DNA of 58,119 nt from a virus. The notes beneath the pieces were generated by a model. It was not told the DNA's origin. It saw only the letters and a program-made list of their open reading frames with translations, and made no database searches. Below are positions 1,537 through 44,509 of this stretch, one piece after another. The position numbers were made by a program, and so were the translations under genes. Position 1 is the stretch's first letter. Each line of letters starts with the position of its first letter. The stretch lies in IMG/VR virus record IMGVR_UViG_3300029319_000051, positions 1-58,119 of that record, one strand, 5' to 3'.

Positions 1537-1910
1537 AGGTAGATGGCTTCAGAGTTGGCAAAATCGTAGATGGCCTTCTCACCCCGCGCTTTGGCAAGTT
1601 CGAGAGCCACTTGCTTGGACTTTACTACGTCAGAGAGTTCGAGGTAAGCTATACCTGCGGGGTCTTCGACCACATCCACCCACGCTCCGATGACTTGGTT
1701 GGGGTCACTCACCACCGACTGAAGTCGGTTCATTTCTCGGTTGAAGGTTCGGAACGAGAGTTCGTCGTTCTTGCACTTGAACGCGCCCACCGCTGGCTCT
1801 GCACCACCGACGGCATAGCCGTCCACGCCTCCATAGGTGAGGAGGTCTTCGCCTCGGACGCTGAAGCCCTCGCTCTCTTGAACGAGGAAGTATAAGGATT
1901 TGATTGTCAT
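1533..1910 (-). CDS. Hypothetical protein downstream of the hammerhead ribozyme, 125 aa
   Basis: Function not recognised. The chosen start gives MTIKSLYFLVQESEGFSVRG, and the ATG lies 26 nt after the predicted ribozyme cut. An upstream in-frame start would put the N-terminus inside the ribozyme and is unlikely. The product has a Gly-rich centre (GGVDGYAVGGAEP) and ends with helices. The gene contains several perfect short hairpins (1661-1671, 1714-1729, 1809-1823). It is coupled to the 56-aa gene by ATGA. Confidence 0.65.
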   Translation of the reverse strand: MTIKSLYFLVQESEGFSVRGEDLLTYGGVDGYAVGGAEPAVGAFKCKNDELSFRTFNREMNRLQSVVSDPNQVIGAWVDVVEDPAGIAYLELSDVVKSKQVALELAKARGEKAIYDFANSEAIYL

Positions 1911-1930
1911 CGTAGATGAATTTGAAGTTT

Positions 1931-1980
1931 GATACAGACGCCTCACGGCGTTTCGTCCAGTCAGGACTCGTCAGTGTACC
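1931..1980 (-). ncRNA. Type I hammerhead self-cleaving ribozyme
   Basis: All parts of the hammerhead core are present in order on the minus strand. Stem I is GGTACA (1980-1975) with TGTATC (1936-1931), six pairs including one G-U. Then come CTGACGA (the CUGANGA box), stem II GTCC/GGAC with a 5-nt loop, GAAA, and stem III CGCC/GGCG closed by a GTGA (GNRA) tetraloop. The cleavage triplet is GTC, and the predicted cut lies between 1937 and 1936. Both termini lie in stem I, which makes it type I. Cleavage leaves a 5' end reading TGTATCAAACTTC, so the TCAAACTTCAA element falls at the new transcript end, 26 nt before the ATG at 1910. Every conserved core residue is intact. Activity is inferred. Confidence 0.9.
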
Positions 1981-2081
1981 TGAAATGCCTGTTGGCATTC
2001 TTCGCAAGTGTGCCTGCTTTCCGCGCTTTCGTCGGTGGGCACAAAATCTGCAAGGCAGATGGAGCATGGCTTCGTGTCCAT
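1971..2081 (-). CDS. Mini zinc-ribbon/finger protein, 36 aa
   Basis: The product MDTKPCSICLADFVPT continues to a second knuckle HTCEECQQAF. The CxxC...HxCxxC spacing is that of a small treble-clef or zinc-ribbon protein that binds one zinc. The ATG begins one base after the stop of the 46-aa gene. Its TGA stop is the TGA of the ribozyme's CTGACGA box, so the reading frame ends inside the ribozyme core but before the cleavage site. The partner is unknown; small phage zinc proteins often bind nucleic acid or host RNA polymerase. Confidence 0.6.
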   Translation of the reverse strand: MDTKPCSICLADFVPTDESAESRHTCEECQQAFQVH

Positions 2082-2082
2082 A

Positions 2083-2223
2083 TCAGCAGTCGATGAGGTC
2101 AGCCAAGGTCATCTGCTCGTCGCAGGTCAGCTCGTCCCACACAGCAGTGCAGGTGAGGAGGTCGAGGTCGAAAGAAGAGGTCAGGAGGTCAGCGATGAGC
2201 TGACGGCGCAGTTGCTTATCCAT
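2083..2223 (-). CDS. Small acidic hypothetical protein, 46 aa
   Basis: The product starts MDKQLRRQLIADLLTSSFDL and is an acidic, Leu/Asp-rich helical protein with three Cys. Function not recognised. The start at 2223 follows a 41-nt leader that contains TTTTTCAAACTTCAA and begins at the foot of hairpin H2. In-frame upstream starts would read through that leader and are less likely. Confidence 0.6.
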   Translation of the reverse strand: MDKQLRRQLIADLLTSSFDLDLLTCTAVWDELTCDEQMTLADLIDC

Positions 2224-2264
2224 AGGAATGGGGTTTGAATTGAAGTTTGAAAAATTGTTGTCTA

Positions 2265-2326
2265 AGAGTGTCTTGTATATCTCTCTCTTCACTACGTTCA
2301 GAGAGAGAGATATACTAAGACTCTCT
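2265..2326 (-). promoter_or_regulatory. Long conserved hairpin H2 at a gene head
   Basis: A 14-bp stem (2275-2288 with 2302-2315) carries the same loop as H1 (CTGAACGTAGTGAA on the minus strand), the same single-base bulge and then TCTT/AAGA. H1 has TGTT/AACA at the matching place, a G-C to C-G swap that keeps pairing. The inner stem also changes from ATACT/AGTAT to CTCT/AGAG. It lies between the 90-aa and 46-aa genes, upstream of a TCAAACTTCAA element (2240-2250). Confidence 0.75.
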
Positions 2327-2332
2327 AAAGGA

Positions 2333-2605
2333 TTAGCCGATGGAGCAACCGCTTCCAATGGCAAGCAAGCTTGGGGAGATGGCCATCTTCACAGCGCCCG
2401 CTGTTGCGTCATGCAGGAGGTCTTTCAGACCTTGCAAGTCCCACAGCATTCGGAGTTTGTCGCCGTCCTCTTCGTTATCAACGAAGGAGTCAAGAAAAGC
2501 GACAGCTTCGCTGAAGGTCGCGGAGTCGAGCGTCGCGTCCTGCGGGTAGGAAATGGTGATTTGGCTGATGTCTTCGACATCAAGGTCAGAAACTAAGTAG
2601 TTCAT
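2333..2605 (-). CDS. Hypothetical acidic protein, 90 aa
   Basis: Function not recognised. The product is acidic and helical (FLDSFVDNEEDGDKLRML) with a Gly/Ser/Cys C-terminus. MNYLVSDLDV at 2605 is taken as the start; another ATG at 2629 would add eight residues across a hairpin (TTCATT-GAA-AATGAA). The coding sequence holds several perfect short hairpins (2419-2431, 2470-2486, 2503-2513). Confidence 0.55.
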   Translation of the reverse strand: MNYLVSDLDVEDISQITISYPQDATLDSATFSEAVAFLDSFVDNEEDGDKLRMLWDLQGLKDLLHDATAGAVKMAISPSLLAIGSGCSIG

Positions 2606-2648
2606 TTTCAATGAATTAAGGTGAAACAATTAAACTAATCCTAAAGGA

Positions 2649-3197
2649 TTAGAAGGGGAGTTGGTCAAGTCCAACTTCGTTGGAAGGAGAAGGCAGAGTC
2701 GTAGACTCCATGTGCAGGGCGAGCACTGCGGTGAGAGCCTCAATCTTAGCTTCCAAGGAAGCTACTCTTGACTCGTCAACCGAAGGTTGAGCGGCAACTT
2801 CAGCCCTTTCAGCAGTAGCAGAACGAAGTTCTGCTTTCTTCGCTGCTTTAGCAGCGGCCCCAGTGGCCACCGAGACAGCTTTAGCTGACTCCCTAGCTTC
2901 CTTAACGGAAGCTGTCTTAGCCTTCTTCGAAGGCTTAATCGGACCAACTTCGTTGGTCTTGAGAGCCGCTTTGTCTTGGCGGTCTGCCACCTTCTGTGAA
3001 GGTGTTCTCTTCGTCGTCTTACGACGACGCTTCTTGCCAGCCTTCTTCGAAGGCTTGTCGGCAACCTCTTCGAGGTTGTTGATGAAGTCCAAAGCTTCTG
3101 AAAGAAGCTTGACAGCAAGAGCCTTACGGCTCTTGGTTGGACGGAAGATGGCTTGGTTGGTTGCCTTACGGCAAGCTGAGAAATTGAAGTTTGACAT
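2649..3197 (-). CDS. Lys/Ala-rich histone H1-like DNA-binding protein with SSB-type tail, 182 aa
   Basis: The N-terminus (MSNFNFSACRKATNQAIFRP) leads into a helical segment to about residue 45. A long basic low-complexity tail follows (KKAGKKRRRKTTKR, then repeated KKA/AKAAKKAE blocks), like histone H1 or bacterial Hc1 tails. Next come a coiled coil (VASLEAKIEALTAVLALH) and an acidic end, GLDQLPF. The DxLPF end resembles the C-terminal tip of single-stranded DNA-binding proteins that recruits partners, and the SSB-like protein at 53802-54104 ends DALPF. A role in compacting or organising DNA is inferred. The start codon directly abuts hairpin H3. The gene contains at least thirteen perfect short hairpins. 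Confidence 0.6.
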   Translation of the reverse strand: MSNFNFSACRKATNQAIFRPTKSRKALAVKLLSEALDFINNLEEVADKPSKKAGKKRRRKTTKRTPSQKVADRQDKAALKTNEVGPIKPSKKAKTASVKEARESAKAVSVATGAAAKAAKKAELRSATAERAEVAAQPSVDESRVASLEAKIEALTAVLALHMESTTLPSPSNEVGLDQLPF

Positions 3198-3252
3198 GAG
3201 ATAATGTATTAAATGAAACTCATAGAGTTTCGTTTCATTTAATACATATCTC
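3198..3252 (-). promoter_or_regulatory. Long hairpin H3 abutting the start codon of the H1-like gene
   Basis: GAGATAATGTATTAAATGAAAC (3198-3219, split here by its one bulge) pairs with GTTTCATTTAATACATATCTC (3232-3252), giving about 20 bp closed by a 12-nt loop. Its 3' foot on the minus strand is directly followed by ATGTCAAACTTC, the start of the H1-like gene. The stem sequence is unrelated to H1/H2, but the position relative to TCAAACTTCAA is the same. If the mRNA were processed here it would be nearly leaderless. Confidence 0.65.
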
Positions 3253-3254
3253 TA

Positions 3255-3610
3255 GCAGTTTGGTGTCCTCACTACACTACCAAGGGTAGTAGTAGTGGAG
3301 CCAAAAGCCGCTAACACATTGAGATACAACTCGTTGTATCCGTATGTTAGCCAACGTGAAGGCCGACCAAAACGGCACCTTTGCCACCCCATAAAGGGGT
3401 GAAGTGATTCAACTAAAGGTTTAAGTTGGGGATTGTCCCACCCTGACAGACAGCGCGTCCCATCCTGCGGTCTCCTGCGGTGGTTGAGGAGAAGCTACCT
3501 AACTGACTGGTAGTCAGTAGGTAGGCAAAAGCTGGAATCTACAGCGCAAACACCGAAGGTGTTTGGGGGGTGGGGTCTGCCAAACCGTTTCGGCACGTAG
3601 TGCCGACCGC
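3255..3610 (-). ncRNA. Large structured non-coding RNA candidate, about 350 nt
   Basis: No convincing reading frame was found, but many perfect or near-perfect stems fill the interval. They are 3259-3305 (TTTGG/CCAAA closing a 14-bp bulged stem), 3310-3351 (7 bp, then an internal loop, then GATACAA/TTGTATC), 3359-3380, 3385-3401 (CACCCC/GGGGTG), 3410-3428, 3495-3524 (13 bp), 3547-3565 (8 bp) and 3591-3605 (6 bp). A long-range CCCACCC (3437-3443) with GGGTGGG (3568-3574) could close the central domain. On the minus strand two loops become cUUCGg and cCUUGg, very stable tetraloops, which favours minus-strand transcription into the H1-like gene. It matches no RNA family that I can name with certainty. 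Confidence 0.65.
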
Positions 3611-3814
3611 TACTATATACATATAATCCCCACGGTACATGTAACTGATCTCTTTTTTCGCAGTGATCTTGGATTATTGCCTTCAGAAACAATTTCACAC
3701 GAAAACATCTAAGCCTTTTGTTTACAGCAAGTTAGAGGCCTTGTCTTAAACTGTTACTAGACTATTGACTTTTAAGATTTTCCTTTATACCTTTACGGCA
3801 TCGAAGCGATTCAG
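3611..3814. other. Divergent intergenic control region
   Basis: This stretch lies between the structured RNA (leftward) and the first late gene (rightward). The rightward side has a plausible Bacteroidetes-type promoter at 3765-3795. I did not find a matching TAnnTTTG box for leftward transcription, although the AT-rich stretch at 3612-3628 (ACTATATACATATAATC) could be a promoter of another kind. No coding potential was seen except the start of the 27-aa gene at 3815. Confidence 0.4.
3765..3795 (+). promoter_or_regulatory. Probable promoter for the first late genes
   Basis: TTGAC (3765-3769) is followed after 18 bases by TACCTTTA (3788-3795). This matches the Bacteroidetes -33 TTG / -7 TAnnTTTG layout with one mismatch in the last base. 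The 27-aa gene starts 20 bases downstream. Confidence 0.5.
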
Positions 3815-3898
3815 ATGAAGAAAGCAACCAAAGATGGTTTTTGTGTGTACACAAATGAATCCTTTATTCTTTATGGCGCGAGGATAGTAGTATCATGA
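3815..3898 (+). CDS. Tiny hypothetical protein, 27 aa
   Basis: The product is MKKATKDGFCVYTNESFILY followed by GARIVVS. Function not recognised. Its TGA overlaps the ATG of the next gene (ATGA), and it begins 20 bases after a plausible promoter. This context is the reason to list it; it is otherwise too short to judge. Confidence 0.45.
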   Translation: MKKATKDGFCVYTNESFILYGARIVVS

Positions 3899-4182
3899 AA
3901 GTAAAAAAGCGAGATCCCAAGGTTGGGACAGGTAAAAAACCCAAGGGGAGTGATCGCAGGCTGTATACTGACGAGAATCCCAAGGATACAGTAAGCATTA
4001 AGTTTGCTACACCTGCTGATGCACGTGCTACAGTGGCCAAAGTGAAGAGAATAAACAAGCCCTTTGCCAGAAAGATTCAGATATTAACTGTAGGGGAGCA
4101 GCGAGCTAAGGTTATGGGTAAAAAAGAAGTGGTTGGCATATTTAGAGCAGGGAAAGAAGCGCTAAGGCGTAACAGAAAATAA
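3895..4182 (+). CDS. Small basic hypothetical protein, 95 aa
   Basis: It is a Lys/Arg-rich protein starting MKVKKRDPKVGTGKKPKGSD and containing a beta-like centre (DTVSIKFATPADARATVAKV). The MKVKKRD opening is shared with the 75-aa protein at 8505. Function not recognised. It resembles the small basic virion or accessory proteins scattered through this phage's late region. Confidence 0.65.
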   Translation: MKVKKRDPKVGTGKKPKGSDRRLYTDENPKDTVSIKFATPADARATVAKVKRINKPFARKIQILTVGEQRAKVMGKKEVVGIFRAGKEALRRNRK

Positions 4183-34987: not shown

Positions 34988-36659
34988 CTTATTTGCTGGG
35001 GCTCCCCTACCTGGTCGCTTTGATGAAGTTCAGCAAGCAGATCTTTCTCAAGTTACCACTACGTTTAGGGCTATGGACATTCGGGACAAAGAAGCTGCCC
35101 GAAGATTTGAGAGGGCTGAAGACATGCGTCGTGAAGACCTGGATAAAATTGCTGGGTTTGATATATCTAGCCTTGGTCAGATGGGATCTGAAATTTTTCA
35201 AGTTGACGCTGAAGCTCTTGCTGAACAAATAAAAAACGGAGAGCTTGACCCTACTGAAGCTAGAGCCGCAATAACAAAGCTTACTTCTGATTACGGTCAA
35301 TACAAAGCTCATGGCGACGCCATGTTGGAGCGCAGCACCTACGCTAAAAATGTGGCTACGGATGCAAAAGCAAGACAAGCTCACAATGATGGTCTTGCAG
35401 TAGGCTATCAAACCACTTATGGTGTTGATGATTACGGCATTCAAAAAAACCTATCTATGAACCAACTTTTTTTGCCAGGCAGTGCGAAAAAAGGAAGAGA
35501 TGGTAATTGGACCGTTATAGACCCCAACACAAATCAAAGAGTTCCTATAACGCAGGTTACTGGGTATGCAAATCCAAACCACTTTTACAGATTTGGTGAG
35601 GAAAAAATTGATGTGGGTGATTTGCAGACTAGCGCCATGAGTGAGCCCATACAAAACAGAATACTTAAAAGAGGTAACAACGTATTTTATGAGGAAAACG
35701 CCATCATAGAGTATGACACTCTGACTGAAAACAGCAATAAAACAGGCCAAACTTTAAGACTTCAAATACTTGAAGACTATCAAGATGAGTCTGGCAAAAG
35801 CACATATTTTAACGAGTCTGATGAGCAAAGAGCGTTTCAATTTGGGCCCAATGGATACAACAGAATCCAAGGCATTCAAAACGAAGACGAAAAAATAAGG
35901 CTTCAACAAGCTTGGTTAAGTGTGTGGGGACCTCCTGGACAAAACAGAACGAAAGACGAGTCTGGAAATATTGTTGCAGAAGGTAGCGGTTGGGATCTTT
36001 TAAATTCAGAAAGATCTAAGTTTGTTGAGTATGCAAGAACTAAGACCTCTACCGATGAGCTTATGAAGAGAGAAAGATTGCGAACCTCTCGAACATCTGG
36101 CGATGGAACTAGTGTGGAAGATCTTTATGGGTTTGAAGAAACCATAGAAGATGTTGCTGCTGGCATGGGTCCTCAGCCAGAAACTGCTATGTCTTATGGT
36201 ATGACTACAATAAAAACACCCATACAAGTAGAGGCTAGTAGCTTTGGCGATGGTGGAGATTATGAAATACACGCCTTTGGAGTTGACCCAAGAAATGGAA
36301 ACATTACAGCCAGAGTGTTTGATGATGTCAACATAACACTACACCAGTATACTGATGAAAACGGATCTGTGTTGTTTGCAACATCAGCTCAAGAGGCGAA
36401 TGCACTAGCTAAAGAAAAAGGTGGCATTTACGAGGGTAAAACATCAAAAGTTAAAAACCCCAACCCGCCACAAAGAACAATAGTTATATCTCCTGGCAAT
36501 CAAACCTTTGGTAACGAAGTTTACAATCGTATATTTGGTGTTGACCCCAAAACGGGAGGCCCAACGAATGCAACAGCAATTGAGCTTTTGAATGCTCACA
36601 AACAAAAAGCCAATAGAATGGTTGCTCAAGATGCTGGAATACCCATACCCAATCAATAA
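34980..36659 (+). CDS. Internal virion / DNA-ejection-type protein, 559 aa
   Basis: A soluble, charged and helical protein (TTFRAMDIRDKEAARRFERA) with a middle region of mixed structure. It overlaps the previous gene by eight bases and the giant polyvalent gene by one. Together the three genes mirror the gp14-gp15-gp16 series of T7-like phages in order and increasing size. No enzymatic motif was recognised. Confidence 0.55.
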   Translation: MSNLFAGAPLPGRFDEVQQADLSQVTTTFRAMDIRDKEAARRFERAEDMRREDLDKIAGFDISSLGQMGSEIFQVDAEALAEQIKNGELDPTEARAAITKLTSDYGQYKAHGDAMLERSTYAKNVATDAKARQAHNDGLAVGYQTTYGVDDYGIQKNLSMNQLFLPGSAKKGRDGNWTVIDPNTNQRVPITQVTGYANPNHFYRFGEEKIDVGDLQTSAMSEPIQNRILKRGNNVFYEENAIIEYDTLTENSNKTGQTLRLQILEDYQDESGKSTYFNESDEQRAFQFGPNGYNRIQGIQNEDEKIRLQQAWLSVWGPPGQNRTKDESGNIVAEGSGWDLLNSERSKFVEYARTKTSTDELMKRERLRTSRTSGDGTSVEDLYGFEETIEDVAAGMGPQPETAMSYGMTTIKTPIQVEASSFGDGGDYEIHAFGVDPRNGNITARVFDDVNITLHQYTDENGSVLFATSAQEANALAKEKGGIYEGKTSKVKNPNPPQRTIVISPGNQTFGNEVYNRIFGVDPKTGGPTNATAIELLNAHKQKANRMVAQDAGIPIPNQ

Positions 36660-39600
36660 TGAACGGAGAAGATCTTACACAAGTAGGCGCTGAGGTTTCA
36701 GACATTGAAAAGAGCATTGACCTCCTGTCAGAAAAAGGATATGACTCCAATAGGATCATGGAGGTCATGTCCTCTGTTGGCTATGACTCAAATCAGGTTT
36801 ACAATGAGTTCGTTCGTCGTCACGAAGATGAGCGCCAGAGAATGTTGGAGGAGAAAGAGAGAGCAGACGCTTTGTTTCAGCAACAGCGTGACGCATACGA
36901 CGCGCTATTAAAAAAAAAAGACTTACCATCAGAACAAGATGGGGAGTCCTTGGATTTAGATCCCCAATTACCTGGAGCCCAAGCATCGGTAGCTGACCCA
37001 CGTTTGTTCGAGATTCGTCAGAACGACGAGTTGGCAATGAATGGTGTGACAAACAGCAGGATTGGCAATGAGCTTGTCCGTGCTGTAAGTTTCAATGACT
37101 CTCAGGCAGTAACTAAAGCGCTTGAAAGCGCTCAGTCAAATGGACTTCTTACTGAATTTTCTATCGAAGACGAGTACGATCAGGAAACCCTGCAAAAGAT
37201 ACAAGGTGCTGGTAATGAGATGATTGGCTTTGGAAAGAGCAGCTATCAGCTGGCTCTTAGCAAGGCCAACGAGATTAATAAGTCTTTAGGTATAGACATT
37301 GAGTACGACATCAACAGTGAAACAGACTTTGGTTTGTTCCTAAGAGAGTCTGTAGAAAGAGTAGAAAGGAACGAGGAGGACTTTAACAAGAGGACAGAGC
37401 AGTTTATCCAGCAGATCCCAGGCATGAGAGATGAGGAGGTGGGATTTGGCAGCATCCTTCTTGATGACTTAAGTTTTTCTAACATGGTGTCTGGCATGGC
37501 AGCATTTCAGGCTGATGTGTTCGGAGAGGGGGCTGGTCTTAAGAGTCTTTATGGGGATTCAGTAACCTCAGAGTACTATCAGGAAAAGATTAGAAAAACA
37601 AATCAGGCCAACGCCCAGCGCGAAAAGCTTTTTTACGAAGATCTTGAGGTGGCTGAAGAGGCATACTCTATGGGCAGCACAGAAAGGGTTGCGGCTGCAT
37701 GGAGAGGGGACATATCAATGGGTGATTACCTAGCTGCTACTACCGTAGAAACCAGCAGAGTAATGGTCGATGGCATAAAGTCTATTGCAGAGTATATAAT
37801 AAACCCAGCTGTTTTAGCTATTGATGTGTTTGGAGAAAGCTATGGAAACACTAGGACTTACTCTCCACATCTGAGCATTACTGAAGCGGCTGTTACATCT
37901 GCTGCCAAGGCTACGACTGAAGTCGTAATGGAAAGGATTATGATGGGCCTTGGTGTCGGCGCTGAAGCCCTTGTGAAAGGGTCTCTAAAAACTGCAAAGC
38001 AAACACTAAGAGGATCAAAACGTGCAGCTATAGATAAGGCTAGAAAAGACCTTGCTGGTAAGCTGACAGGTAGTTTGTCTGGTAAAATTATTGGAAACAC
38101 CGCTATTGAAGGGCTTGAAGAGGGGTTGGTAGAGATAACAAACTGGGCTATTGATGCTGCCGACAATGTCGCAATGGGCAGAAATGTTAAAGACCTAAAC
38201 TTCAGCGAAGTAGGTGATGCCTTCTTTGCTGGTATGGCTGGTGGGTTTGGTCCAATCGCCGTTACACAGCTGCCTTCTCACAGGGGGCACATTAAGTTTA
38301 TGTCCGACAGGTCTAACGTAATGAAGGCGATAGCCGAGCTTAGAAAGGACTATGAAGCTGAAACAGACCCCGTTAGAAAAAAAGAGCTAGAAAAAGACTT
38401 GATGAATGCAATGGTTAGATCCAATGTGATCACCAATGCAGAAAACAAAATGTACGAGGACTTTTCTCCAGAAGAGAAGAGGACAGTCATCATGTACAAT
38501 CAGGAAATATCTAATCTTCAACAGACTCTAGACACAGGCAAGTACTGGAACGGAGACAAGGTTACTTCTGAAGAGCGTACTGCTCTTGAAGCTAGGCTTA
38601 AGAACGCCATAGATAGGAAGGCTAAGATTGAAGCTGGTGTAGAGGCAAGACAGGGTGAGGAACAGTCTAAGGAAGAGGTTGAAACACCCCCAACTGTAGA
38701 GAACGCAGCAGAGACCAAGGCAGAAACAAAGACAAGGAAGGTGCCTAAGTCTGAAAAAGATATCCATAAGGATATCCCTGTCCCTACAGAGAAGGCACCT
38801 CAGGGTCAAGAGCAGGAGGCTGTTCAGCTTTCTTTGTTTGATGAGAACACTGTTCTCGATCCAGTAGCTGAGCCTGAAACTCAGCCAGAAGTACAAGAGG
38901 AAGCTCCTGTACAGGAAGAAGTAAAGACAGAGGCCGAGCAAGAAGCAGACAAACCAGTAGAGGAGCAAGGCTTCTTTGAGCTAAATGCAGAAGAAGCTCA
39001 GAAGTTTGACCTCAAGGACACTAAAGTAGTCGGTGATGGTGCTGGCCAAATATCTATACCCCTTGCCTCTAAAATAAACAAAGTCATTGATGCCTTTGGG
39101 AAAAGGGGACTTAAGGGTATCAAGGTTAGATACCACAGAAACACAGAGTCGTTGAGAAATGTTGACCCCGAGGTGGCTCAACAACTTGACCAAATTGAGT
39201 TGCAGAACCAGCAGAGTGGAAAAAAAGCAAGACTTGGTGGGTATTTTTTAAACGGTACGATTCACCTACACAAAGACAGCGATGCTCTTGATGTGCTAGA
39301 GGAGTTTAGTCACGGGGTGCTGAAAGATGTTATCGGAAAGGAAGCTAAGTCTAGAGAAAGACTTTACAATGAGCTGGTTGATATGTCTAAGGGCAAGTCA
39401 AAAGCTGCTCAGGAAGTAAAGAAAGTTCTTGATGAAAGAGAGAGGCTTTATAAGGGTGTGAGTGATGCTACAATGCAAGAAGAGTCTATTGTTTTCTTCT
39501 TGGTAAACTACGCTCAAAATCCTTCTTCGTTCTCCTCCTTAAAGTCTAGGATAAAGTCTGCTTTGAACAGATTTTTTAAAAGCGTCGGAGCTAAAAGCAA

Positions 39601-42600
39601 CATTATAAAAACCGACGACTCGCTATTGAGACTTGCCAACAAGTTTAGAGATGCAGCACAGGGAGTAGAAACTCAAGTACAACCTGAGACACGGGCAGAA
39701 ACAGAGCCTGAAACAGAAGTAGCTCAAGAAACAGTAACTCCTGACAAGGACCCTGCCGACATGACCCCTGAAGAGCTTGAGGCATACACCAATCAGCTTG
39801 TTGAGGGGGCCGAGGGGGTGGAAACCTCACAGGACGACGCTCTATCTAAAAGCACCCAAGACATTGATGTGACACCTGGCATGGCGTCAATTAGGCAAAA
39901 GCAGAACTTTAACTACTTAAAAGACACTGAGATATTCTACACTCACTATCCAACTCTTGGTGCTGGCGACTTACCCTTGACTAGCAGCAGATACACTACG
40001 TACAGTGTAGAGAAGTCAGTAAAGGTAAATGACTACTTTCACTTCAGGAACTGGTACAACTATCAAACTGGCAATCAAGTGTCTAGAAGAATTGCCAACA
40101 TGTACTTTATCAAAGATGGTAAAAAGTACAATGTTAATCCGCCAAGACCAAAGGTTGATCGGAATGGCAAGATAGTCCCTATGGATCTGCCGTTAACTTT
40201 TAGGCAGAGACAAAGACAAGAGTCTTTTCAAAAAGCAAAAGATTCTAAAAATATTCTTGCCAGAGTAAAAGACATCAATGACACCAACAGGAAGCTATTT
40301 GACACAATTCCTTGGAATGGGCTTGTAAATGCCAGGGAGTTTGCGCCAGCAACCAAGCCTCTATATGAGATGACTGCAAATGACAAGTACGTTGCTGCAG
40401 TTATTGAGCAAAAAAACTTGCAGGCTGCCATTGATATGGGGCTTACAAAAGAAGAGGTACAAGAGAGAGTTAACAAGCCAGACCGTGGCGGAGTCACAGG
40501 GAAGCTTAATAGGCTTATGGATGGTGACATTGTAAATGCTACTGGACTAGTGCCATTTGAGCAGGCAGAGACTGGAGACACCGTAGGTATGTTTGCTCTT
40601 AGAGACCTCAATGTTGAAAAGTTAGGTAAGCCCGATCACGTGGCGTCTAATGAAGAGCTTGCTGATTTAAAAGAGGGTAATATCGAAAGAATAAAGAATT
40701 TATTTATGAAGTTCTTCGGGTATGATAGAAGCATGCCCAATCAAGAAAAAGGAATTACCTCTGGCATTAGAGCGGTTCAGAGGCTGGACGAGACAGACAT
40801 TCCTGAACTCAAAGAAGGGGAAAGAGTTTTATCTACCCACGTCAGCTTTAGTCACGCCCAAAAAGGCATAGAGGCATATAGAAAAGAAGCTCAGGCACGC
40901 TACAGACAAGACAACAGTGTAACCTCTGGAGAGTTTGGGGCTGGATTTACTGTGCTTCTCCCCGAAGCCACAAGAGGCAACCCAGATGTCGTTAAAGCGT
41001 ACTTAAATGGCCTTTTGGCAAGGTCTAAAGATAGGGAGGCTGGTTTGCCTGGTCCTGCATTGTACAATAAGTTTACTTCAACAGGGAAGAGACTTATTAG
41101 ATCAATGGTAAAACAAGCTGAGGCTGAACAATACGAGGGGTTGTCTCCAGAAACCGCAAGGTTATTTTCTTCACCTGAATTTGATCGCCCTGTTACAACT
41201 GAAAAACAGTTTCAAGAAATAATAGATGTAGCAATCAATTTTAACGAAAAGCTTCCAGATCAATTTGAGGCCAGAAAAAGTCTATTTTCAGAGGATCTTT
41301 TGGAAGAATTTTTGGGGCATGAATCTTATGAGATGGCAAGAGAAATACCCCACCCGTCTCTTAAAATGGACGACCAAATAGCAGAGTATTTTAACGACCC
41401 GTCTCTTAGCAATCAAGCTGCAGGCACTCTTATAGGATACAAAACTTTTTCCTACGAAGTAGAGGTAGTAGAAGGCGCTAAAGCAAGATCAAAAGGCGGA
41501 GAAGAGTTTGTTGACTTTAAAGAAGGAACTATAAGAGCCGTCAAACTAGATGGTTATGGTTTTGCAGGGGCTATTGTTGTCAAGGGAGAGGTTAGCGATT
41601 TAGAGGTTTTGAAGGAGCAATACACTCTTGATAGACTAGACCCAGATCAGTTTAAAGATCCAGAGCTAGTCCCCACCACTGAGCCCGATCCAGAAACAGG
41701 GATAAGGGTGGCCAAAGACACCAAAACTCCGTACCAAAGAATGGAGGAGCGCAACAGATATAGTCGGATTGAGATGAACTCAGTCAGAAATGACTATGAT
41801 GGGAACGCATCTATCAGAGAGGGAAGAGGCCTTACGTCTATTCGTACTGACCAAGGTACATTCGAACTGTCGGATCTCAACTCTTATCAAGAGTGGAGAA
41901 ACAAGTGGATCAAAAGGCTTCAAGACAAATACGTAGACATCTTCAAAATACAGCAGGATGTAGAGACTGCTAGAGGCAAAATAGATAGAACTCAAGACTT
42001 CCGCATGGCCGAAGAGCTCATGTACGGTAAGGCAGCAGAGGATCTGCGTAAACTTGACGAGAAGGTTGACGGTATTACAAGTGAGCTCAAAGCAAACAAG
42101 ATATCTCCAAGTGAAATATCAGAATACCTATATGCTTTACATGCTCCTGAACGAAACCAGCTGATTAGTGAAAGGTCTGAAGGTAAAATTACTGAGGGAT
42201 CTGGAATGAGCAATGCTAGGGCTAAAGAGATTATAAACGCTATCCCATCAGGCAAACAAAAGGCCTACGACAACATCGTCAAGATGGTTAGAGAGATTCA
42301 GCAGGACACTAGAGACACGATGGTAAACTTTGGCCTTGAGTCAAAAGAAACCATTGACGCATTTGAGGCTATGTATGAAAACTACACGCCTCTATCTGGT
42401 ATCGCAACAGATGAAGAAACGTCATTTGATTCTTCTTACCCAACGGGTGGGGCTGGACTTTCTGTGTTTGGGCCAACCACCAAAAGGGCGGAGGGCAGAA
42501 AGACAGAGGCAACAGATATACTAGCCCAGGTAATCGCTCAAAACGCTTCGATACATATTAAGTCAAGAACCAATGAGGCTCTTCAATCTTTGTACAACTT

Positions 42601-44509
42601 GGTTGAACAAAACCCCAACCCAAAGGTTTGGAGAATTGTTGATGCAGAAAAAGCAAGACAACAAGACCCTCATTCTGTTGGTGTTAGAGTGGGCGGTGAG
42701 CAGAAGTTTATTAGATTCAAGGACGCCAGCCATGCTGAGACACTAAGGAATCTAAATCTGCCAGCCACAACCACCTTAATTAGAGTTCTTCGAGCTCCAT
42801 CTAACTGGTTGAGAAGGTCGTTTACAACTTTGAACCCAGAGTTCATGGTGTCTAATTTCTCTAGAGATATCCAAGCCGCCCTGTTCAACGCTGCGGCGGA
42901 GGCTGATATCCCAGGAGGACTTGTAGAAGGCAATGCAATTATTGCTGACATGATTAAGACGGTGCCAGCAACTCTGAAAGCCTTGACTAGAGATGAGGTG
43001 GGGGCTTTGAAAAAAGTTTTTAAAGACAACCCAGAGATAGAGCGGTACTACAACGACTTCAGAGAAGACGGGGGAAAGACGGGTTGGAGCTATGCAAAGC
43101 CATTGTCAGACATAGCTAAAGACCTAGAAGGCAAGACTGGTGAGAAGACTAGGATGCAAGAAATTCTAGGCAAGGGGAAAAACTTCCTTGATACTATTGA
43201 GGGAGTAAATGATGCCTTTGAAAATAGCATCAGGCTGTCAGCATACATTGCTGCAAGAGAAAAGGGTGTAGGCAGGGAGAAGGCAGCACAGCTGGCAAAG
43301 AACATTACCGTGAACTTTAACAAGTCTGGCGAATATGGACAGGCTATCAATGCGGCATATTTGTTTTTCAATGCTTCTGTTCAGGGAACTGCAAGATTAG
43401 GTAAATCCTTGCTCACTTTCAAGGAGCCAACATATCCAGACGGAAGCCGAAGAAGACCCATAGACAGAATAAACAACGCACAGAAGATGGCAGCTGCCCT
43501 CACTGTGTTTAATGGTCTTCTCACAATGTTGGGTCTCGCTATGTCTGGAGAGGATGAAGATGGAGAGCTTTACTACAACAAGATCCCCGCTTACATAAAA
43601 GAAAGAAACCTCATAATCATGAGGCCTGATGGCGAAAACTACTACAAAATTCCTATGCCTTATGGGTTTAGCGTCTTTGCTAACCTAGGTAACCTATCTG
43701 TAGAGGTCGGTGCGGGACACAAAGAAATAGACGAGGCGATGTTCCAAATGATATCGTCAACCATAAACTCCTTCTCTCCAGTAAGTTTTGGTCAGTCTGA
43801 AGATTTGATTACAAAAGTTGGAAAAACAATAACTCCAACATTCTTTACGCCAATTATAGACTATATGGCCAACGAAACATACTTTGGCACTCCAGTTAGA
43901 GCCAAGAACTTGCCGTATGGTTTGCAAAAGCCTGAGTCATCATTGTCATTTAGATCTCCAGAATCTGTTCAACAGTTTTTTAGGTGGTTGAATGAAGCTA
44001 GTGGTGGATCAACAGAAGTCAAGGGGGATATAGATATCAACCCAGATGCTTACTGGTACTTCTTCGAATACTTTATTGGAGGTGCGGGTAAGTTTGTTAC
44101 AAGAACAGGAGAGGCTACCAGAAGGTTGGCAGCTAAGGCTTCCGACACTGACGTGCAGATAGAGGCAAATGATATTCCATTCTTGAGGCTGCTTTACGGT
44201 GAGCCATCTAAGTTCATGGACGTTGAGGACTACAGAAAGAGACGCGATATAATTAAGTCCCTGAGGTCTGAGATGAAAGCGGGCAGGAGAGACGACCCAG
44301 GAAGATATGATGGTGTTCTCCTCCTAAATCAAAGGCTTGACTTCTTTGACAAGCAACTTAAAAATATCAGGGCTCAAAAAAGAAAGGCCTTGAACATAAA
44401 GGATTACGCACAGAGAACAATAAGGATAGAGGAGTTAAGAGAAAAAGAAAGAAGTATAGTTATGAACTTTAATGAGCAATATGAAAAACTCAGAGGGAAA
44501 AAAGATTAA
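36659..44509 (+). CDS. Giant polyvalent ejected protein with LPD38-type C-terminus, 2616 aa
   Basis: The first 130 residues are helical and charged. A hydrophobic region follows near 350-480. Around residues 700-770 lies a disordered Glu/Pro/Gln linker. At about 878-890, LDVLEEFSHGVLKD sits where metallopeptidase-type polyvalent proteins carry HExxH, but the first His is Glu here. The C-terminal part is the clearest: NPEFMVSNFSRDIQAALFN (about 2059-2077), YLFFNASVQGTARLGKSLL (about 2234-2252), then YIKERNLIIMRPDG and YYKIPMPYGFSVFANLG (about 2312-2345), which I recognise as the large polyvalent-protein domain LPD38. Such proteins travel in the virion and enter the cell with the DNA. It is T7 gp16-like in place and role. 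Confidence 0.75.
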   Translation: MNGEDLTQVGAEVSDIEKSIDLLSEKGYDSNRIMEVMSSVGYDSNQVYNEFVRRHEDERQRMLEEKERADALFQQQRDAYDALLKKKDLPSEQDGESLDLDPQLPGAQASVADPRLFEIRQNDELAMNGVTNSRIGNELVRAVSFNDSQAVTKALESAQSNGLLTEFSIEDEYDQETLQKIQGAGNEMIGFGKSSYQLALSKANEINKSLGIDIEYDINSETDFGLFLRESVERVERNEEDFNKRTEQFIQQIPGMRDEEVGFGSILLDDLSFSNMVSGMAAFQADVFGEGAGLKSLYGDSVTSEYYQEKIRKTNQANAQREKLFYEDLEVAEEAYSMGSTERVAAAWRGDISMGDYLAATTVETSRVMVDGIKSIAEYIINPAVLAIDVFGESYGNTRTYSPHLSITEAAVTSAAKATTEVVMERIMMGLGVGAEALVKGSLKTAKQTLRGSKRAAIDKARKDLAGKLTGSLSGKIIGNTAIEGLEEGLVEITNWAIDAADNVAMGRNVKDLNFSEVGDAFFAGMAGGFGPIAVTQLPSHRGHIKFMSDRSNVMKAIAELRKDYEAETDPVRKKELEKDLMNAMVRSNVITNAENKMYEDFSPEEKRTVIMYNQEISNLQQTLDTGKYWNGDKVTSEERTALEARLKNAIDRKAKIEAGVEARQGEEQSKEEVETPPTVENAAETKAETKTRKVPKSEKDIHKDIPVPTEKAPQGQEQEAVQLSLFDENTVLDPVAEPETQPEVQEEAPVQEEVKTEAEQEADKPVEEQGFFELNAEEAQKFDLKDTKVVGDGAGQISIPLASKINKVIDAFGKRGLKGIKVRYHRNTESLRNVDPEVAQQLDQIELQNQQSGKKARLGGYFLNGTIHLHKDSDALDVLEEFSHGVLKDVIGKEAKSRERLYNELVDMSKGKSKAAQEVKKVLDERERLYKGVSDATMQEESIVFFLVNYAQNPSSFSSLKSRIKSALNRFFKSVGAKSNIIKTDDSLLRLANKFRDAAQGVETQVQPETRAETEPETEVAQETVTPDKDPADMTPEELEAYTNQLVEGAEGVETSQDDALSKSTQDIDVTPGMASIRQKQNFNYLKDTEIFYTHYPTLGAGDLPLTSSRYTTYSVEKSVKVNDYFHFRNWYNYQTGNQVSRRIANMYFIKDGKKYNVNPPRPKVDRNGKIVPMDLPLTFRQRQRQESFQKAKDSKNILARVKDINDTNRKLFDTIPWNGLVNAREFAPATKPLYEMTANDKYVAAVIEQKNLQAAIDMGLTKEEVQERVNKPDRGGVTGKLNRLMDGDIVNATGLVPFEQAETGDTVGMFALRDLNVEKLGKPDHVASNEELADLKEGNIERIKNLFMKFFGYDRSMPNQEKGITSGIRAVQRLDETDIPELKEGERVLSTHVSFSHAQKGIEAYRKEAQARYRQDNSVTSGEFGAGFTVLLPEATRGNPDVVKAYLNGLLARSKDREAGLPGPALYNKFTSTGKRLIRSMVKQAEAEQYEGLSPETARLFSSPEFDRPVTTEKQFQEIIDVAINFNEKLPDQFEARKSLFSEDLLEEFLGHESYEMAREIPHPSLKMDDQIAEYFNDPSLSNQAAGTLIGYKTFSYEVEVVEGAKARSKGGEEFVDFKEGTIRAVKLDGYGFAGAIVVKGEVSDLEVLKEQYTLDRLDPDQFKDPELVPTTEPDPETGIRVAKDTKTPYQRMEERNRYSRIEMNSVRNDYDGNASIREGRGLTSIRTDQGTFELSDLNSYQEWRNKWIKRLQDKYVDIFKIQQDVETARGKIDRTQDFRMAEELMYGKAAEDLRKLDEKVDGITSELKANKISPSEISEYLYALHAPERNQLISERSEGKITEGSGMSNARAKEIINAIPSGKQKAYDNIVKMVREIQQDTRDTMVNFGLESKETIDAFEAMYENYTPLSGIATDEETSFDSSYPTGGAGLSVFGPTTKRAEGRKTEATDILAQVIAQNASIHIKSRTNEALQSLYNLVEQNPNPKVWRIVDAEKARQQDPHSVGVRVGGEQKFIRFKDASHAETLRNLNLPATTTLIRVLRAPSNWLRRSFTTLNPEFMVSNFSRDIQAALFNAAAEADIPGGLVEGNAIIADMIKTVPATLKALTRDEVGALKKVFKDNPEIERYYNDFREDGGKTGWSYAKPLSDIAKDLEGKTGEKTRMQEILGKGKNFLDTIEGVNDAFENSIRLSAYIAAREKGVGREKAAQLAKNITVNFNKSGEYGQAINAAYLFFNASVQGTARLGKSLLTFKEPTYPDGSRRRPIDRINNAQKMAAALTVFNGLLTMLGLAMSGEDEDGELYYNKIPAYIKERNLIIMRPDGENYYKIPMPYGFSVFANLGNLSVEVGAGHKEIDEAMFQMISSTINSFSPVSFGQSEDLITKVGKTITPTFFTPIIDYMANETYFGTPVRAKNLPYGLQKPESSLSFRSPESVQQFFRWLNEASGGSTEVKGDIDINPDAYWYFFEYFIGGAGKFVTRTGEATRRLAAKASDTDVQIEANDIPFLRLLYGEPSKFMDVEDYRKRRDIIKSLRSEMKAGRRDDPGRYDGVLLLNQRLDFFDKQLKNIRAQKRKALNIKDYAQRTIRIEELREKERSIVMNFNEQYEKLRGKKD

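Follow-up and report, generated by a model that had tools for sequence, protein, structure and literature searches.

Positions 3255-3610 of the virus record IMGVR_UViG_3300029319_000051 raise the question of whether a short intergenic stretch encodes one large structured non-coding RNA, as had been proposed from its letters, or whether its stems belong to an element of another kind. The question was addressed in the window, that is the whole stretch of DNA analysed (58,119 nucleotides), and in related metagenomic contigs.

Genes around the divergent junction

As the original prediction stated, the stretch lies at a divergent junction and holds no convincing reading frame; minus-strand gene 1 (3197..2649) is found on one side and a plus-strand gene (3895-4182) on the other. 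The nearest matches of the phage terminase are below 50% identity and come, for example, from Elemovirus and from Cellulophaga phages, which infect Bacteroidetes. By TerL, the nearest public phages are Elemovirus and MW202828.

2649..3197, minus strand: gene 1, a basic protein of 182 aa from an orphan family, with 14 perfect hairpins of 6-8 bp in its coding sequence

Proteins of the gene-1 family have a conserved N-terminal segment (CRKAVNQA.FRPT..RKA..KLL), a lysine-rich middle and an LPF tail, which we take to resemble the tails of SSB proteins; the family profile retrieved no relative from PDB or Pfam. The plus-strand gene 3895-4182 encodes 95 aa without a PHROG match and is exceedingly common in marine viral contigs, where at least 597 of the 600 candidate relatives listed were confirmed. 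The non-coding region was absent from the best 80 loci of these relatives. Further along the plus strand, positions 36659-44509 encode a protein of 2616 aa that has an LPD38 domain towards its end and is possibly injected. Finally, a TCAAACTTCAA motif (6 matches in the window, 1.05 expected) stands at or just before minus-strand gene starts (3179-3194, 2235-2250, 1917-1932, 1182-1197 and 631-646), several of which are preceded by strong hairpins (3198-3253, 2275-2327 and 1199-1267).

An array of small hairpins extending from the junction into the first genes

Scanning for perfect hairpins with a stem of at least 6 bp gave 29 in positions 2001-4000, where 3.2 were expected, and 9 in positions 1-2000, where 1.4 were expected; the density in most of the remaining genome stays within about two- to three-fold of chance. 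The stretch 3255-3610 holds six of these hairpins, plus composites such as the GCTAAC..GTTAGC stem, and on either strand none of 100 dinucleotide shuffles folds as well (z -4.6 on the minus strand, -3.8 on the plus strand). The strong stems that had been announced there are real, and relatives conserve them. The limits of the region, however, differ from those supposed: hairpins continue past 3255, become denser through coding sequence and reach down to about 1700. In all, the array covers about 2 kb, from the core described below, via the leader, into the first genes. Its main components, from the junction downwards, are the following.

3590..3606, minus strand: hairpin tcggcacTACgtgccga, within the variable part of the core, in some relatives only
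3547..3565, minus strand: hairpin caaacaccTTCggtgtttg, changed on both sides in relatives
3496..3523, minus strand: composite hairpin CTACCTA-CTGACT-loop-AGTCAG-T-TAGGTAG, pairing kept in 97.4% of cells, with a two-sided change in one pair
3385..3401, minus strand: hairpin caccccTTTATggggtg, from the perfect-hairpin scan and the leader covariation test
3311..3353, minus strand: composite hairpin GGCTAAC..GGATACAA-CGAG-TTGTATC..GTTAGC, extent approximate
3269..3297, minus strand: composite hairpin CACTAC..CTACC-CTT-GGTAG.GTAGTG, from the leader covariation test, extent approximate
3198..3253, minus strand: long hairpin of about 21 bp, abutting the gene 1 start codon, several pairs changed on both sides in relatives
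1700..2648, minus strand: remaining array, thinning out across the next early genes
2601-2615, minus strand: start-codon hairpin TTCATTGAAAATGAA, part of the remaining array

Measured from the start of gene 1 in the 17 closest relatives, hairpin density is at chance (0.28 per 300 nt) upstream of about -600, rises abruptly in the leader (3.7 per 300 nt), reaches its maximum within gene 1 (8.5 per 300 nt) and fades by about +1500. Contigs with a gene-1 relative (L093-L109) have the same density profile as the window. The other 80 marine phage loci contain no comparable array (at most 6 hairpins per kb, versus 16-23 per kb here), and none was found in 50 kb each of Elemovirus and MW202828.

The units are local, independent and uniform in size, and they run through at least three protein-coding genes. 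Maximal stem length peaks at 7 bp (317 observed, 5.3 expected), with 6 and 8 bp common and 5-bp stems enriched only 2.4-fold. Loops measure 3-4 nt, and in genes they are closed by C-G in 234 cases versus G-C in 9; triloops of the c(GAA)g/c(TTC)g type prevail, and the gap from one hairpin to the next in genes is most often 4-6 nt. Stem sequences have no common motif. The GGA of a CsrA-type sponge is not among the common loops (GAA, TTC, CTTG, TAT and others). Two loops had been read as stable UUCG and CUUG tetraloops; in the pairing register they are 3-nt loops (UUC and CUU) closed by C-G, and their letters vary freely between relatives (TTC, CTT, GAA, AAG).

Selection on pairing

The gene 1 coding sequence has 14 hairpins, whereas its 200 synonymous-codon shuffles contained 2.0 on average and never more than 5; all 17 phages tested in this way (the window and 16 relatives) exceeded their own shuffle maximum. 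The fold of this coding sequence is strong (DNA z -7.5/-7.9, RNA z -7.7). Conserved pairing in relatives, on which the original prediction had been staked, was found in the leader: 91.1% of cells are paired across 14 relatives (13 distinct sequences), and the covariation score is 0.134, compared with 0.070 in shuffles (0/500); slid controls did not exceed 0.052. Of the five measures in this test, two (the count of double-changed pairs and the count of pair types) do not rise above shuffles. The hairpin at 3311..3353, for instance, has GC/UA and UA/CG double changes in its inner stem and a GC/CG double change in its outer stem. Between close pairs of contigs, leader and genes together gave 146 compensatory changes versus 23 G-U, 36 A-C and 70 other mismatches, counts that are not independent and overstate the number of separate events, as the relatives are interrelated metagenomic contigs and contig pairs share sequences.

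The pairing is also kept where the protein is not. At one gene-1 site most phages encode ..KTNEVGP.., others ..FHGKADSP..; a hairpin forms in either case, from different stem letters, and a comparison of L103/L105 with the window shows hairpins kept despite a protein difference. Where the block opens with a gene for an unrelated protein, as in L121/L142 and L163/L165, that gene is hairpin-tiled nevertheless, which ties the array to position and not to a protein. A TTCATY-NNN-RATGAA hairpin embeds start codons (L097:3991-4005, window 2601-2615 and others); nearly all loci with it bear the array, and C/T in one arm is matched by G/A in the other. That the hairpins are maintained by selection is secure, and selection keeps the array whatever the sequence encodes.

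A rigid single-copy core

The array begins at a conserved block structure located at the junction.

3527..3657, minus strand: core, 130 bp, with A-tract, GAG.AAT, GTGGGGATTATATGTA, CCGAAACGG, CCCCACCCC and TTCCAGCTTTT blocks
3633-3618, minus strand: core block GTGGGGATTATATGTA
about 3593-3585, minus strand: core block CCGAAACGG
about 3575-3566, minus strand: core block CCCCACCCC
3537-3527, minus strand: core block TTCCAGCTTTT

A first pattern search with the blocks common to these loci retrieved 40 contigs, some without the array, and a second one, using the first and last core blocks with 30 nt of play, retrieved 115 stretches. Despite this permitted play, the offset between blocks A and D is 96 +/-1 nt (95, 96 or 97) in 111 of 112 distinct loci. 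The core is present once per locus and contains ATTATATATA adjoining GGGG. Its fold is ordinary (z -0.9), and no column pair of its 105-nt stretch covaries in a helix-like way across 88 sequences. A folded 5' RNA was considered for the core and dropped for this lack of a covarying helix. Because its phasing is fixed and pairing is missing, the core appears to be the trace of a DNA-protein complex rather than a folded RNA. To judge from these patterns it looks like a DNA control site, either an origin or an unusual promoter, and it could equally serve as a promoter for an unrecognised polymerase or factor.

Hairpin density changes sharply at the core. Upstream of it we counted 0.30 hairpins per 300 nt, near chance (n=51); over the first 900 nt downstream, the means in core-bearing loci of the first pattern search are 3.4-6.3 per 300 nt, and past about 2 kb the density is again near chance. 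Contig ends cluster 190-600 nt downstream of the core in 17 of 31 whole-contig loci (L154, L157, L166, L178, L183, L218, L221, L222 and others), a cluster that may reflect broken assembly, a hypervariable border or a genuine end of the DNA.

Host-type promoters are found on the far side of the core.

3765..3795, plus strand: host-type (Bacteroidetes) promoter TTG-N20-TACCTTTA, directed away from the array

A host-type promoter (TTG-N20-TAACTTTG) pointing from there toward the structural genes is present in 74 of 91 relatives versus 24 expected. Toward the array, TTG-N18-21-TAnnTTTG occurs in 6 of 91 loci between -320 and 0, with 9.4 expected, and no stretch from -600 to +700 rises above about twice expectation in the 91 loci. 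A 27-aa reading frame on the plus strand (3815-3898, MKKATKDGFCVYTNESFILYGARIVVS) follows the window's promoter and overlaps the start of gene 3895; its DNA is conserved in relatives, its reading frame only partly.

The region is thus a two-part control region, composed of a rigid single-copy core and about 2 kb of Watson-Crick hairpin array.

Relatives with and without the array

At least 1.2 kb of sequence downstream of the core is available for 62 distinct loci, of which 26 show a clear array and 26 no array, with 10 in between. Members of the gene-1 family occur in 24 of the 26 array-bearing loci and in 5 of the 26 array-less ones; gene 1 and the array therefore travel together and neither requires the other. 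Gene 1 as an obligatory partner of the array was rejected on the strength of L163 and L165. Three array-less relatives carry tandem direct repeats downstream of the core, where other phages carry the array: a same-strand TCTATAG repeat on a grid of about 13 nt or its multiples in L140 (5628-6006) and L143 (6831-7162), and GAGCTGACG repeats in L117 (1045-1095). In L121, the operon on the array side leads to a primase-helicase gene. The early operon of array-less L124 holds a Pistol ribozyme (E 3e-11) and a weak hammerhead-like match (532-596 and 1500-1554, both on the minus strand).

RNA or single-stranded DNA

Neither strand is favoured when fold energy, RNAalifold on both strands, G-U versus A-C mismatches and loop type are considered together. 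Indeed, sense and antisense strands fold equally well, the coding-region z being slightly better for sense, and the asymmetry of GNRA/CUUG loops is dominated by a few shared sites. Counting unique hairpins, internal mismatches in genes comprise 11 G-U versus 6.5 expected and 16 A-C versus 9.3 expected, turnover limiting the power of the comparison. Neither data set, and neither strand, shows a preference for G-U over A-C, a comparison of modest power because hairpin turnover adds random mismatches; in tRNA stems of the same phages, treated identically, G-U is present and A-C is not. About half of the double changes are of transversion type (55 vs 52), and these cannot pass via a single G-U step.

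DNA mini-hairpins of the GCGAAGC type are very stable. A mini-hairpin DNA has been employed as a stabiliser (PMC4686876). Equal folding of the strands, the lack of a G-U preference, the transversions and the triloops are no less compatible with single-stranded DNA than with RNA; the onset of the array at the core and its confinement to the transcribed direction suit RNA. We lean slightly towards a DNA function linked to an origin over an RNA function.

A possible origin-linked function

We propose that the array is a hairpin-forming element with an origin-linked DNA function, a reading to which we give a probability of roughly 0.4. The core would be the phage replication origin, or an origin combined with a non-host-type promoter. 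Once the array side was opened, the exposed single strand would fold into a string of mini-hairpins, which would block re-annealing or coating by host ssDNA-binding and recombination proteins; the mini-hairpins may in addition act as repeated landing sites for a replication protein, the basic gene-1 product being the candidate. The mRNA of the early genes would necessarily bear the same hairpins.

Several observations support an origin: the rigid core, present once per locus, in which ATTATATATA adjoins GGGG and RNA covariation is absent; the absence of a host-type promoter toward the array; the direct repeats at the position of the array in three array-less relatives; and the array-side operon leading to a primase-helicase gene in L121. 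A single-copy rigid element does stand beside a repeat array, as in origins of the repeat-bearing kind. DNA rather than RNA is supported by the tRNA control for G-U, by the equal folding of the strands and by the triloops. Against an origin it counts that the array occupies just the transcribed side of the core and thins out along the operon, a pattern that would fit an RNA role just as well, and that about 26 core-bearing relatives have no array; we know of no origin that approaches the 2-kb length of this hairpin array.

The strongest competitor, which we rate only slightly lower, is that the hairpins armour an RNA. A long early transcript would start at the core, and its promoter-proximal 2 kb would fold co-transcriptionally, leaving only short single-stranded gaps and so blocking Rho loading, R-loop formation, RNases and antisense or CRISPR RNAs. 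In favour of it, the array is found exclusively downstream of the core and declines along the operon, neighbouring hairpins in genes are most often separated by 4-6 nt, the composite, bulged hairpins of the leader look RNA-like, the sense strand folds slightly better in coding regions, and a Pistol ribozyme occurs in the same operon of array-less L124. Against this stand the lack of a G-U preference, in contrast to the tRNAs of these phages, and the dominance of triloops, not GNRA/UNCG tetraloops. Many relatives moreover have their start codons inside hairpins, at an expected translation cost in Flavobacterium-type hosts. In such hosts initiation is tuned by mRNA structure (PMC6847099).

It is rather unlikely that the hairpins exist to be bound by an RNA- or DNA-binding phage protein, most simply the lysine-rich gene-1 product, as a packaging, coating or autoregulation signal. 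The distribution of the gene-1 family (24/26 versus 5/26) and the basic tract conserved in it speak for such binding, but much of this association is explained by shared ancestry; L163 and L165 have a dense array without a gene-1 relative, the gene-1 carriers L198 and L213 are almost without array, and hairpin sequences and loops have no motif in common.

We consider it very unlikely that the array is a functionless by-product of mutation, left where near-palindromes in DNA that is often single-stranded are perfected by strand-switching or by hairpin-templated repair. In favour of this reading are the double changes that lack G-U intermediates, about half being of transversion type; against it are the sharp 7-bp size limit, the 3-4 nt loops, the regular short spacing, the homologous places of the hairpins in every close relative and the fact that 47 of 68 changed hairpins have only one double change.

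Finally, a single large ornate RNA of the GOLLD or ROOL kind is hardly credible: strong local folding and covarying pairing are indeed found, in the leader and the genes, but the hairpins run on through coding genes and peak within gene 1 instead of being confined to a non-coding transcript, the core has no covariation, no long-range helix covaries and nothing matches Rfam. The gathering-threshold scan of both strands returned only two tRNAs in the window, and a lax scan of 2400-3900 gave matches at chance level, nothing near any gathering score. The 7-bp long-range helix once suspected (CCCCACC/GGTGGGG) hardly varies in close relatives, is lost in distant ones and so finds no support. An alternative helix, GGGGATT/AATCCC, is near-invariant in the close group and not kept in distant relatives, and was dropped.

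Comparison with known systems

Large ornate phage RNAs such as GOLLD and ROOL (class: PMC12286853) are likewise large structured stretches of phage DNA with many helices; here, in contrast, there are uniform local hairpins that enter coding genes, no Rfam match and no conserved long-range architecture.

Phage and plasmid origins with iterons or hairpins are located within early or initiator genes or next to them, lambda being an example, and single-stranded DNA origins also bear hairpins. The likeness consists in a single-copy rigid core with an A+T-rich stretch beside a repeated array and, in some relatives, direct repeats at the corresponding place; the difference is that about 40 non-identical hairpins extend over 2 kb and overlap several coding genes. 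The virion RNA polymerase promoters of N4 are DNA hairpins with a 5-7 bp stem and a 3-nt loop in the early region. Stem and loop size, early position and a host-type promoter only toward the other arm are shared, whereas the many hairpins seen here have no sequence in common. A family and motif search for an RNA polymerase in the large proteins (2097 and 2616 aa) gave no match, although such a search may miss a divergent polymerase. RNA viruses impose genome-scale ordered structure on coding sequence. Structure is imposed on coding sequence here too, but in a dsDNA phage, over 2 kb beside one control site and with strict Watson-Crick small hairpins. In the target of the BPP-1 diversity-generating retroelement, a short DNA hairpin/cruciform with a defined stem and loop is the functional unit (PMC3240598), as may be the case here, with one hairpin there and arrays here.

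The open-licence papers compared contain no description of such a hairpin array, and no known kind among them fits the array together with the core. We give somewhat better than even odds to an undescribed phage element, linked to a control site, in which about 40 mini-hairpins uniform in size and not in sequence cover the first genes of an operon and would act as nucleic acid, probably as folded single-stranded DNA, independently of the encoded proteins.

Significance

This region is a clear case of a dsDNA phage that keeps dense secondary structure across several protein-coding genes despite amino-acid change. It also calls for caution, since a structured non-coding RNA called from a short intergenic stretch may excise part of a larger element. 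Large, uniform and frequent among a group of marine phages, the array is missing from close relatives, so that its purpose is directly testable. Depending on the answer, it would represent either a phage replication origin of a new type or a novel means of protecting early transcripts.
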